A stretch of DNA of 64,000 nt, taken from NCBI RefSeq assembly GCF_029633965.1, contig NZ_CP091277.1:1113940-1177939 (forward strand). Direction: 5' to 3'. Below the pieces are notes generated by a model. The model saw nothing but the letters and a program-made list of their open reading frames with translations. It made no database searches and had not been told where the DNA came from. Numbering within the stretch: position 1 is the first letter of the stretch; the number at the start of each line of letters is the position of its first letter. Below, one piece after another: positions 50,891 to 54,433 of the stretch. This stretch comes from Methanogenium sp. S4BF (GTDB lineage Archaea > Halobacteriota > Methanomicrobia > Methanomicrobiales > Methanomicrobiaceae). The position numbers and the translations under genes were made by a program.

Positions 50891-51151
50891 TTAGTATCTT
50901 CTGTATTCGGTACGCGGCCTCTGGGGACGTGCTTCATCAATTCTAAGAGTGCGGCCGGTAAATTCAGTCTCATTGAGAGCTTCCATTGCCTTCTCTGCCT
51001 CTTCAACTGTGCCCATCTCAACGAACCCAAATCCCTTGCGTTCAATGACACGGACATCCTTAACATCGCCAAAATCTTCGAATAATTCTCTCAGTTGAGC
51101 TTCTGTAACTGAATACGTAAGATTGCCAACGTATAACTTGCTGCTTTCCAT
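50891..51151 (-). CDS. Single-RRM RNA-binding protein
   Basis: RNA recognition motif protein of 86 residues. RNP2 is LYVGNL (6-11), and RNP1 is KGFGFVEM (39-46). A basic tail (RPQRPRTEYRRY) follows. It resembles small bacterial RRM proteins (cyanobacterial Rbp type), which are often cold-induced. TTGGAG lies before the ATG. RRM proteins are scarce in archaea, so lateral gain from bacteria is likely (inference). Confidence 0.92.
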   Translation of the reverse strand: MESSKLYVGNLTYSVTEAQLRELFEDFGDVKDVRVIERKGFGFVEMGTVEEAEKAMEALNETEFTGRTLRIDEARPQRPRTEYRRY

Positions 51152-51190: not shown

Positions 51191-51740
51191 TATTATCTTA
51201 GCGCTCATCGGTTATATTATGTCGTTCCGCACCATGTGATTTTATATCCCGATGAAATGACAAACCGGTGCATCATTCTCCATACGGGATCTGTCCTGAG
51301 CATCGGACGGTAGTTTTTTAAAAGAACACATTCCCCTGCAGGCAATACACCAATTATACTCCAATAATCCCCTGTATATTCCCATACCGATGAATTTAGA
51401 AGAGTCTTCTGTGTGAATGACCGGGTGCTGAAGTTTGACTCATGACATTCTCCCACACCCTTCCAGCCATCCCTGCAGTGGAATATGCAGCAATCCGGCG
51501 GCTTCTGTTTCCAACCACGGAAGAGTATCCAGACATTACCGCAGGATAAAGAAGACCATCAAATAAGGCAGGCATTGCCGTTTTATAGAAATCATATCTC
51601 CGGACCTCCGGTCCCTTACGTGCGGCAGTTATATTCATGGTATACACGGGGATCAGCCGAATTCACATCACATGCCGGTGGTTTCCCGATGACCATCACC
51701 TATTTATTTCCTGACATACAGTCTGGGAATGGTGAGAACC
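51191..51740. other. Intergenic region without recognisable gene
   Basis: About 550 bases lie between divergent transcripts. Short minus-strand frames (around 51217-51647) show no family motif or ribosome binding site. A TATA-like CCTATTTATT (about 51701-51710) lies about 30 bases before the small gene at 51741. Confidence 0.4.
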
Positions 51741-51932
51741 ATGATCTGTATGGGGTATGCAAATCTCTCAGCCGAAAACATCGAGAAGGTAAAGGCAATT
51801 GAAAAAGAGATGAACGTAACACTTCTGGCGTATGAAGTTCCTGCCTACTCATCTCTGAAGGAAGACGACCTGAAAAAGATCAAAGACCTTGAAAAAGATC
51901 TGGGACTGTCACTGGTTGCATACGAAGTGTGA
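51741..51932 (+). CDS. Small internally duplicated protein
   Basis: Protein of 63 residues with two copies of a ~25-residue unit. The first is IEKVKAIEKEMNVTLLAYEV and the second LKKIKDLEKDLGLSLVAYEV; an amphipathic helix is followed by a strand ending AYEV. GGTGAG stands five bases before the ATG; an earlier ATG at 51729 is also in frame. Similar short proteins occur in methanogens without known function. The duplication may give a compact alpha-beta-alpha-beta fold. Confidence 0.75.
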   Translation: MICMGYANLSAENIEKVKAIEKEMNVTLLAYEVPAYSSLKEDDLKKIKDLEKDLGLSLVAYEV

Positions 51933-52374: not shown

Positions 52375-52384
52375 GATATAAATA
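52375..52384 (+). promoter_or_regulatory. TATA-like box of the six-gene coiled-coil operon
   Basis: GATATAAATA stands 25 bases before the ATG at 52410, so the first gene should be nearly leaderless. No other promoter is evident until the operon ends at 54433. Confidence 0.6.
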
Positions 52385-52409: not shown

Positions 52410-52862
52410 ATGGAAGGGATAGAATTAACCATTCAGACACGGGCATTCCCCAGCCACGGACGGGCCCGTGTCCATGAATCAGTATTGCCCATGCTTGGGG
52501 TAAAAGAAGCGGAAGCCATAGAGGTAAAGAAGTTGCCCCTGATTGAGGACGAAAAACCAAAGCAGGTCACCCTCAGCATCTACGCTGACGCCATGGTTGA
52601 AGAAGGAGTGATACGGATAAGTCCGGAAGATATTGCAAAACTTGCTGCAGCAGAGGGGGACGTAGTTTATGTGCAGCGGAAGGTTCCCATAACAGAAGCT
52701 ATCAGTAAAAAGGCAGGCCAGACAGGACATGCAGTCAAAGAAGGAGTCACTCATGTGGGGGAAAGTATCGAAAAAGGTGCAAAAGGGGTTGGCGCAAAAA
52801 TAATGCCGGGGAAAGAAAAAGACGAACCTGAAACTGAACCTGAACCCAAACCAGAGGAGTGA
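52410..52862 (+). CDS. Cdc48-N-like double-psi barrel protein
   Basis: Protein of 150 residues. About 1-95 resembles the N-terminal double-psi beta-barrel of Cdc48/VAT: GRARVHESVLPMLGVKEAEA followed by an internal repeat GVIRISPEDIAKLAAAEGDV. The next segment (95-135) is helical with glycines (ISKKAGQTGHAVKEGVTHVG), and the tail is a Glu/Pro repeat. No ATPase domain is present. It begins a six-gene operon and may act as an adaptor like the Cdc48 N-domain. Homology is by pattern only. Confidence 0.65.
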   Translation: MEGIELTIQTRAFPSHGRARVHESVLPMLGVKEAEAIEVKKLPLIEDEKPKQVTLSIYADAMVEEGVIRISPEDIAKLAAAEGDVVYVQRKVPITEAISKKAGQTGHAVKEGVTHVGESIEKGAKGVGAKIMPGKEKDEPETEPEPKPEE

Positions 52863-52868
52863 GGGAAA

Positions 52869-53270
52869 ATGGCTGCAGAGTCATTTGCTCTTGAATGGTG
52901 GGCCTGGTTTCAGTCCTTCATATGGGTCATACTCCTCTTAATCGGCCTCATCATTCTCTATTACATCATCAAAGAGATACACGATTCAAAAGTGACACCC
53001 CGGCTTGCAGAGATTGAACTGGAGAAGGAAAAACTGCAGCTGATGAAACTCGATTATGCCCACAGGGGCCAGCCGTTCTTCCGGGTCACCCCGGAGAAAC
53101 TGGAAGAGATTAACACCCTTGACCAGGAGAATACCAGACTGGAAGCTGAAATCTTTGCAAAACAGAATGCGGTTGACCAGAGAATTCAGCGGCTGGAGAA
53201 TTCAGTGAAGAGCACAAAACTGGATCATCTGGTTGAGAAGATAAAAGACGAGGAGAGGAAAATCCGGTGA
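52869..53270 (+). CDS. Membrane-anchored coiled-coil protein, operon gene 2
   Basis: Protein of 133 residues. One membrane helix (about 15-35; IWVILLLIGLIILYYIIKEI) is followed by a long coiled coil (about 45-130) broken by QPFFRVTPEKLEEIN. The orientation is likely N-out, C-in. GAGGGAAA precedes the ATG, six bases after the first gene. I do not recognise a family. With the neighbours it could build a membrane-bound filament or scaffold. Confidence 0.78.
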   Translation: MAAESFALEWWAWFQSFIWVILLLIGLIILYYIIKEIHDSKVTPRLAEIELEKEKLQLMKLDYAHRGQPFFRVTPEKLEEINTLDQENTRLEAEIFAKQNAVDQRIQRLENSVKSTKLDHLVEKIKDEERKIR

Positions 53271-53276
53271 TGCATT

Positions 53277-53582
53277 ATGTATGAAACAGAAGGTTCCGGG
53301 ACACAGCAAAAGACCTCATTTACCGAATCACTGGCATCAGTACCAGGGTCTATTGACAGAAGTCTGCCATCGATGGATAAACGGCTGGGGAAATATATTG
53401 ATGCCCACATGTCACCTATCATCTCAGAATGGGGACTTGTCACACGATTCACCCTTGATAGTCTTGAGCACCGTCTTGATGCGGTCAGTGCAGACATTAC
53501 CGCACTCGAGAAGGAGAAGCTCGCACTGAAAGAGCGGGCGTCTGCCTTTGAGCAGGCCCTGAGTGAAGCGGAGGAGAAATGA
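53277..53582 (+). CDS. Small EW-motif coiled-coil protein, operon gene 3
   Basis: Soluble protein of 101 residues. Around residues 36-56 it has KYIDAHMSPIISEWGLVTRF, the first of three versions of a motif Y-[IL]-D-x-[HR]-[MF]-x-x-[IM]-[IV]-x-E-W-x-L in this operon. A coiled coil (about 58-100) follows. The start lies six bases after gene 2, and the stop overlaps gene 4 by four bases (ATGA). Function unknown. Confidence 0.75.
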   Translation: MYETEGSGTQQKTSFTESLASVPGSIDRSLPSMDKRLGKYIDAHMSPIISEWGLVTRFTLDSLEHRLDAVSADITALEKEKLALKERASAFEQALSEAEEK

Positions 53583-53806
53583 TGGCAGGGTTTGACGATT
53601 ACATGAATACCTATCTTGACCGCAGGATGAAGGATATCATTGATGAATGGAATCTGGGCACCATGCGGGATTTTGGTGATTATCAGGATCGTCTGCGTAT
53701 GGTCGAAACAGAAATACGGGAGATGGGCCGGTTTACCGCGGAAGCCGGCATGAAACTTACCGATATGGAACAGAGGCTTGAGAAAGTCAGGGAGGCGAAA
53801 CGATGA
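53579..53806 (+). CDS. Small EW-motif coiled-coil protein, operon gene 4
   Basis: Soluble protein of 75 residues. TYLDRRMKDIIDEWNLGTMR (10-29) is the second copy of the operon's shared motif. The rest (about 33-75) is a coiled coil (LRMVETEIREMGRFTAEAGM). Both ends overlap neighbours by ATGA, so translation is coupled to genes 3 and 5. It looks like a shortened relative of genes 3 and 5. Confidence 0.75.
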   Translation: MMAGFDDYMNTYLDRRMKDIIDEWNLGTMRDFGDYQDRLRMVETEIREMGRFTAEAGMKLTDMEQRLEKVREAKR

Positions 53807-54144
53807 CCATTGCTGAGATCATCCTGATTATCGTCGTTATCGCACTCATCGCATTCATTCTCTATTACTACTTCAGAGGATCATCCGGGCAGGTGTCAAT
53901 AAGCCGCCCGATGGAAAGCCGGGTGGATGAGTATCTGGACCGCCATTTTGAACATATGGTCGAAGAATGGTCCCTGATGGATAAATATCAGGTCCGGACA
54001 TTTCGTGAACATAATGACCCGGCACTCATCAAAGAAGAAAAACGCATGGATGGCCTGAAAGAGTTCAGGCATGAAATGACAGACACCCTTACCGGCCTAG
54101 AGGAGCGCCTGAATGTTCTGGAGACAGAGATCAGCGGGAAATAA
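53803..54144 (+). CDS. Membrane-anchored EW-motif protein, operon gene 5
   Basis: Protein of 113 residues with one N-terminal membrane helix (about 4-25; IILIIVVIALIAFILYYYF). EYLDRHFEHMVEEWSLMDKY (43-62) is the third copy of the shared motif. A C-terminal coiled coil (about 80-112) ends it. It seems to combine the anchor type of gene 2 with the motif of genes 3 and 4, so the three motif proteins may form one hetero-oligomer at the membrane. Confidence 0.76.
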   Translation: MTIAEIILIIVVIALIAFILYYYFRGSSGQVSISRPMESRVDEYLDRHFEHMVEEWSLMDKYQVRTFREHNDPALIKEEKRMDGLKEFRHEMTDTLTGLEERLNVLETEISGK

Positions 54145-54199
54145 CAGAAACGGTGAGCAGGGCCGGTTTTACTCACAGCTGAAAGGTGATATTCCTTCC

Positions 54200-54433
54200 A
54201 TGCGGAAACAGGGTGAGCCTCCGCAGAAGGACCCGTCTTCCTTCTCAAAGCATTACTGTGATCTCTGCAACGATGTCTTCCCTCTTACCAGGTTGCGCCA
54301 GTGCACGCTCTGCGGAAGATGGGCCTGTACGTCCTGCTGGACACAGGAATTCTACGTCTGCAAATCCTGCCACGGTGCATATAAACTTCACATTCAGCCA
54401 ACAGTGTCTTCAGATTCTCTCAAAGACGAATAA
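54200..54433 (+). CDS. Eight-cysteine zinc-finger protein, operon gene 6
   Basis: Protein of 77 residues. Eight cysteines in four pairs (CDLC, CTLC, CTSC and CKSC; core HYCDLCNDVFPLTRLRQCTL and GRWACTSCWTQEFYVCKSC) fit two zinc sites of FYVE/treble-clef style. AGGTGA lies nine bases before the ATG. It is 55 bases after gene 5 and on the same strand. It could mediate protein or lipid contacts for the coiled-coil set. Confidence 0.78.
   Translation: MRKQGEPPQKDPSSFSKHYCDLCNDVFPLTRLRQCTLCGRWACTSCWTQEFYVCKSCHGAYKLHIQPTVSSDSLKDE

Follow-up and report, generated by a model that had tools for sequence, protein, structure and literature searches.

A six-gene operon of Methanomicrobiales with the architecture of a candidate membrane-surface scaffold

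What might be built from six small proteins that are encoded side by side, in a nearly invariant order, by only a part of one archaeal order? The question is raised by six plus-strand open reading frames, here called A, B, C, D, E and Z, which form one tight operon at positions 52410-54433 of the window, the 64,000-nucleotide stretch of the Methanogenium sp. S4BF genome (2.51 Mb, a single contig) that was analysed. The original prediction, made from the DNA letters and their translations, described a six-gene operon whose members are separated by 6 bases or overlap at ATGA, and saw in it a membrane-attached hetero-oligomer that it could match to no named system. The layout stands: the ORF coordinates give 6-base gaps or ATGA overlaps at the junctions inside the operon. 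The 55-base gap placed before the last gene does not. Gene Z starts at the ATG at 54113, not at 54200, because the added N-terminal residues align with those of the orthologues and the resulting 32-nt overlap with E is the most frequent arrangement among orthologous loci; the supposed gap is therefore coding sequence.

The single TATA box that had been placed ahead of the operon recurs at a like distance elsewhere. In the window it reads TATAAATA (52377-52384, plus strand), with its first base 33 nt 5' of the first ATG, and a TATA-like A+T box lies about 30 nt 5' of the first ATG in most orthologous loci. This spacing suggests that A through Z are co-transcribed, probably on one polycistronic mRNA with a short leader or almost none.

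The gene set is inherited as a unit. The order A-B-C-D-E-Z is kept in nearly all of 47 loci, as a survey of neighbourhoods across the order reveals; the comparison of gene order took in 40 wider loci from three families and six named ones, and among the operon loci compared no fixed partner gene accompanies the six. Its occurrence is restricted to a portion of the Methanomicrobiales, where 69 of 199 genomes, representing 16 of 38 genera, carry gene E. When 345 genomes sampled across the phylum were searched, the profile of E had no match outside the order. The few matches of the Z profile outside the order are weak, short zinc-finger matches, all in genomes without E. In a 49-genome panel, B is present in all 28 operon-bearing genomes and in none of the 21 others; A is strongly matched in the same 28, with weak matches inside long frames in 4 of the 21. 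Gene E and PF14445 (Prok-RING_2), the Pfam family of Z, scored above its cut-off, coincide in 100 of 100 genomes, 27 of which carry both, and all PF14445 matches above cut-off in the order fall in operon-bearing genomes. The presence of A, B, E and Z is all-or-none in the genomes compared, and the scattering of homologues without their partners, which the original prediction had named as evidence against a joint system, is not seen. Across the six families the pairwise distances rise and fall together (correlations of 0.81-0.89), a result that would equally follow from plain vertical descent. Searches for viral copies of the operon and for gene E on plasmids found none, so by these tests the operon is not mobile cargo. 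Second copies of A-E exist in two draft genomes (L067, 467-2233; L070, 968-2929), with no zinc-finger gene found nearby; each of these genomes also has a finger-bearing copy elsewhere.

The middle of the operon encodes four proteins, B, C, D and E, for which Pfam offers no convincing family. Three of them share the motif Y-[IL]-D-x-[HR]-[MF]-x-x-[IM]-[IV]-x-E-W-x-L: C (53277-53582), a soluble coiled-coil protein; D (53579-53806), soluble and, at 75 aa, the smallest E-W protein; and E (53803-54144), in which an N-terminal membrane helix precedes an E-W domain and a coiled coil. The motif reads YIDAHMSPIISEWGL in C (53394-53438), where E51 and W52 are invariant, YLDRRMKDIIDEWNL in D (53612-53656) and YLDRHFEHMVEEWSL in E (53932-53976), all on the plus strand. 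Its proposed conservation holds up in the orthologues, E-W-x-L being present in all 46 C proteins, in 44/46 of the D and in 39/46 of the E proteins, with EY or EF in the remainder. Profile-profile comparison relates C to D (probability 98.5, E 2e-15) and D to E (probability 98.4, E 6e-15); together with the conservation in orthologues, this relation argues that the shared motif is not a chance resemblance, and at the profile level C, D and E are paralogues. The fourth protein, B (52869-53270), consists of an N-terminal membrane helix followed by a coiled coil; it lacks the E-W motif and gives no clear relation to the E-W proteins in the same kind of comparison (probability 41).

A strongly hydrophobic N-terminal helix occurs once each in B and E, the two proteins (52869 and 53803) for which a membrane helix had been proposed, and in neither C nor D. 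Its approximate limits are 52914-52973 in B, from hydropathy and alignment, and 53809-53871 in E, from hydropathy (mean best 19-residue score 3.1), both on the plus strand. Lysine and arginine follow the helix far more often than they precede it, with mean counts of 3.9 after and 0.1 before in B, and 2.9 after and 0.2 before in E. Given this positive charge after the helix, the coiled coils and C-termini of both proteins are predicted to be cytoplasmic.

Gene A (52410-52862) was originally described as encoding a Cdc48-N-like barrel, and profile and fold agree. Residues 1 to about 90 fold as a Cdc48-N-type double-psi beta-barrel: the CDC48_N profile of Pfam matches 23/23 A orthologues (best E 2.9e-8; E 7e-6 for the window's A, which is below the curated cut-off), and the AF2 model has pLDDT mostly above 90 across the barrel, with low confidence in the tail. 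In Foldseek this confidently modelled barrel comes closest to the N domains of Cdc48/p97 (E 1.7e-7 at best), and most of the matches superpose to about 1.5 Å over ~87 residues; A thus shares its barrel with the N domains of Cdc48, VAT and p97 and with stand-alone archaeal double-psi barrels.

The original prediction overlooked the tail behind the barrel. It is built of 11-residue amphipathic repeats of the type K-A-G-x-x-V-K-E-G-A (52689-52805, plus strand; for example KAGETVKEGAV), and its length ranges from 24 to about 90 residues among A proteins without an additional domain. Averaged over windows of the tail, the helical moment is greatest at 98 degrees, with a value of 0.36 against 0.22 +/- 0.05 in shuffled sequences; this is the angle of the 11/3 helix, a periodicity known from alpha-synuclein and the apolipoproteins. 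The tail also matches apolipoprotein- and synuclein-type chains; the Apolipoprotein family PF01442 matches 10/23 A orthologues, below its cut-off. The 11-residue repeat and its 11/3 periodicity are features that the A tail shares with apolipoproteins, alpha-synuclein, perilipins and group 3 LEA proteins, whereas A differs from proteins of the apolipoprotein type in that the repeat is fused to a double-psi barrel and encoded in an archaeal operon. Repeats of this kind also occur in desiccation-type (LEA) proteins, which need not bind membranes when hydrated, and the A tail is best regarded as a putative lipid-binding segment.

Gene Z (54113-54433) encodes a helix followed by a binuclear treble-clef zinc finger, C-x2-C-x11-C-x2-C-x4-C-x2-C-x7-C-x2-C (54257-54370, plus strand), the spacing of which is identical in 43/43 orthologues scored. 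The eight-cysteine finger was correctly recognised at the outset; that the operon resembles no named system does not extend to Z, which belongs to PF14445. This profile matches 22/22 Z orthologues, with E down to 2.6e-38, and covers the window's Z over positions 1-54 of 56 with E 1.9e-24 and 86 bits against a cut-off of 22.4. PF14445 presumably traces back to the 2011 survey of prokaryotic RING domains by Burroughs, Iyer and Aravind. A literature search, outside which that survey lay, found no paper on the whole operon. Burroughs, Iyer and Aravind (2011, doi 10.1039/c1mb05061c) is cited in PMC11354881 for RING families of prokaryotes.

Although Z clears by a wide margin the curated cut-off of a family named for RING, its spacing and its model are nearer to FYVE. 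The separation of ligands 4 and 5 is x4 in all 43 orthologues scored; x4 is the spacing of FYVE and PHD fingers, whereas RING fingers have a short x2-3. The AF2 model of Z (mean pLDDT 81.9) supports the fold with confidence; compared with solved structures, it comes closest to FYVE domains (Hrs, endofin, EEA1, CARP2, rabphilin and melanophilin), at E 0.12-1.3. FYVE_2 matches 16/22 Z orthologues, at best with E 2.6e-5 and 24.8 bits against a cut-off of 27.2. Like the fingers of rabphilin, melanophilin, EEA1 and CARP2, Z combines the x4 spacing of its eight cysteines with a helix before the finger; unlike typical FYVE fingers, it lacks, in the alignment, the PI3P-binding motifs WxxD and R(R/K)HHCR. 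On the strength of spacing, fold matches and FYVE_2 matches, we treat Z as a candidate FYVE-like adaptor finger that bears a RING family name. A small GTPase was considered as a Rab-like partner of Z, and the search was uninformative, Roc-type matches being found in genomes both with and without the operon.

Two membrane anchors, three separately maintained paralogues, an amphipathic protein and an adaptor finger together point to a hetero-oligomeric scaffold at the membrane surface, which would coat, stabilise or organise the cytoplasmic membrane; we put the probability of this reading at roughly one half. Of the membrane-attached hetero-oligomer originally proposed, co-inheritance and motif conservation now stand as observations, and the physical assembly, like the role in membrane maintenance, is what we infer. 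Read from the architecture, the mechanism could run as follows. B and E would be anchored in the cytoplasmic membrane by their single N-terminal helices, with the coiled coils inside. C, D and E, as products of gene duplication, may pack through the short Y-L-D...E-W helix and the coiled coil behind it, building a scaffold on the inner face of the membrane, to which A would dock by its Cdc48-N-type barrel. Where membrane is exposed or strained, the 11-residue amphipathic repeats of A could settle on the lipid, making A the lipid arm, and in some lineages a TrkA-C domain would add ligand control. Z would act as an adaptor, its helix and FYVE/RING-like two-zinc finger bringing in a client or a regulator.

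The net job of such a scaffold, to coat, stabilise or organise membrane, would be comparable to that of PspA/IM30 elsewhere. The likeness is one of analogy, and lies in a proposed role at the cytoplasmic membrane by way of amphipathic helices and coiled coils. No sequence relation was found, PF04012 matching neither the B and D orthologues nor the window's C and E, so that a reading of these proteins as PspA homologues was dropped; the operon, in contrast, encodes a set of six proteins, among them two with true membrane helices, one with a barrel and one with a zinc finger. PspA is found in 2/49 Methanomicrobiales tested, with positive controls in Haloferax and Methanosarcina, and is also missing from 20/21 genomes without the operon. 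Because PspA is nearly absent with or without the operon, the six genes are not simply its replacement, and they may nonetheless share its job. A set that is invariant across three families of Methanomicrobiales must serve cells nearly devoid of PspA.

Neighbouring genes in a minority of loci touch on the same theme. A DUF308/HdeD-family membrane protein is encoded on the same strand, directly downstream of Z and less than 300 bp from the operon, in seven loci (L006, L047, L051, L068, L073, L074 and L075); in four further loci a gene of this family lies about 600 bp upstream, and in three (L043, L044 and L052) a gene for a DedA/VTT protein lies downstream. These minority neighbours are at most a hint of stress at the membrane or envelope.

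The component folds are already known and the zinc finger has its Pfam family; two parts known from membrane traffic and quality control in eukaryotes, the Cdc48-N-type barrel and the FYVE/RING-like finger, are here combined with a putative archaeal scaffold. A bolder, less probable reading is that these eukaryote-like trafficking parts jointly form an archaeal machine for membrane remodelling or tethering, unrelated to PspA and ESCRT. Such a machine might combine the Cdc48-N-type barrel with a synuclein/perilipin-like lipid-coating tail, a coiled-coil scaffold of three paralogues and the FYVE-like adaptor finger.

The main rival takes the same two eukaryote-like parts as a protein-quality-control or ubiquitin-like module, in which Z would be a RING-type, E3-like protein and A a Cdc48-N-like adaptor, delivering membrane proteins to Cdc48 and the proteasome in an archaeal analogue of ERAD. 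The prokaryotic RING name of the Pfam family of Z, the p97/Cdc48 N fold of the A barrel and the encoding of both alongside membrane-anchored coiled-coil proteins speak for it. Yet Z has an x4 spacing that is not that of RING and is nearest in fold to FYVE domains, and A, its barrel apart, lacks both the second subdomain of the Cdc48/VAT/p97 N domain and the AAA ATPase domain, having the amphipathic tail or a TrkA-C domain instead. The 49 genomes searched, some carrying the operon and some lacking it, gave no match to an E2 (UQ_con), in a search that had no positive control, and no neighbour beyond the six genes is conserved. On this evidence we consider a quality-control module unlikely.

The TrkA-C domain opens another route, that of a ligand-gated signalling or osmotic-response complex, in which a nucleotide or an ionic state would be sensed by the TrkA-C domain or the tail of A and relayed by the coiled coils at the membrane. 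The domain sits at the C-terminal end of A in several lineages (best E 1.2e-9; Pfam matches in L049, L069 and L070, and a similar, unmatched extension in L057), where it suggests ligand control, and in 16 loci response regulators are encoded no more than several kb away from the operon. The majority of A proteins, however, lack TrkA-C, and neither a transporter nor a kinase is a fixed partner, which leaves a signalling or osmotic-response role quite improbable.

The lipid-coat resemblance of the A tail, together with weak phasin-like profile matches for D (6/20, best E 0.0016), would also suit the coat of a storage granule or organelle such as a PHA granule or gas vesicle, but the marker genes do not track the operon, class III PHA synthase being found in 0/18 operon-bearing genomes and in one genome without it, and gas-vesicle protein in 0/28 genomes, so we regard a granule coat as very improbable. 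Least credible of all is an archaellum or motor accessory with FlaC/D/E-like coiled coils, a superficial likeness that rests on small coiled-coil and membrane proteins sharing one operon: Arch_fla_DE, which occurs in 6/6 operon-bearing genomes tested from family f1, in 0/22 from family f5 and in many genomes without the operon, does not track it, and archaellum genes are not conserved neighbours.

Being small, and either soluble or predicted to span the membrane once, the six proteins lend themselves to direct tests of assembly, lipid binding and structure, which could settle what an orphan RING family of Pfam does.

Two further genes upstream of the operon deserve mention. A plus-strand gene at 51729-51932 of the window encodes a 67-aa protein of two similar halves, NIEKVKAIEKEMNVTLLAYEV and DLKKIKDLEKDLGLSLVAYEV, which has no Pfam match and, among the loci compared, is present in those of Methanogenium only. 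On the minus strand, at 50891-51151, lies the gene for a stand-alone RNA recognition motif protein (RRM_1, E 4e-23); such proteins are, to our knowledge, uncommon in archaea, and this one is present in the Methanogenium relatives and at two other loci.
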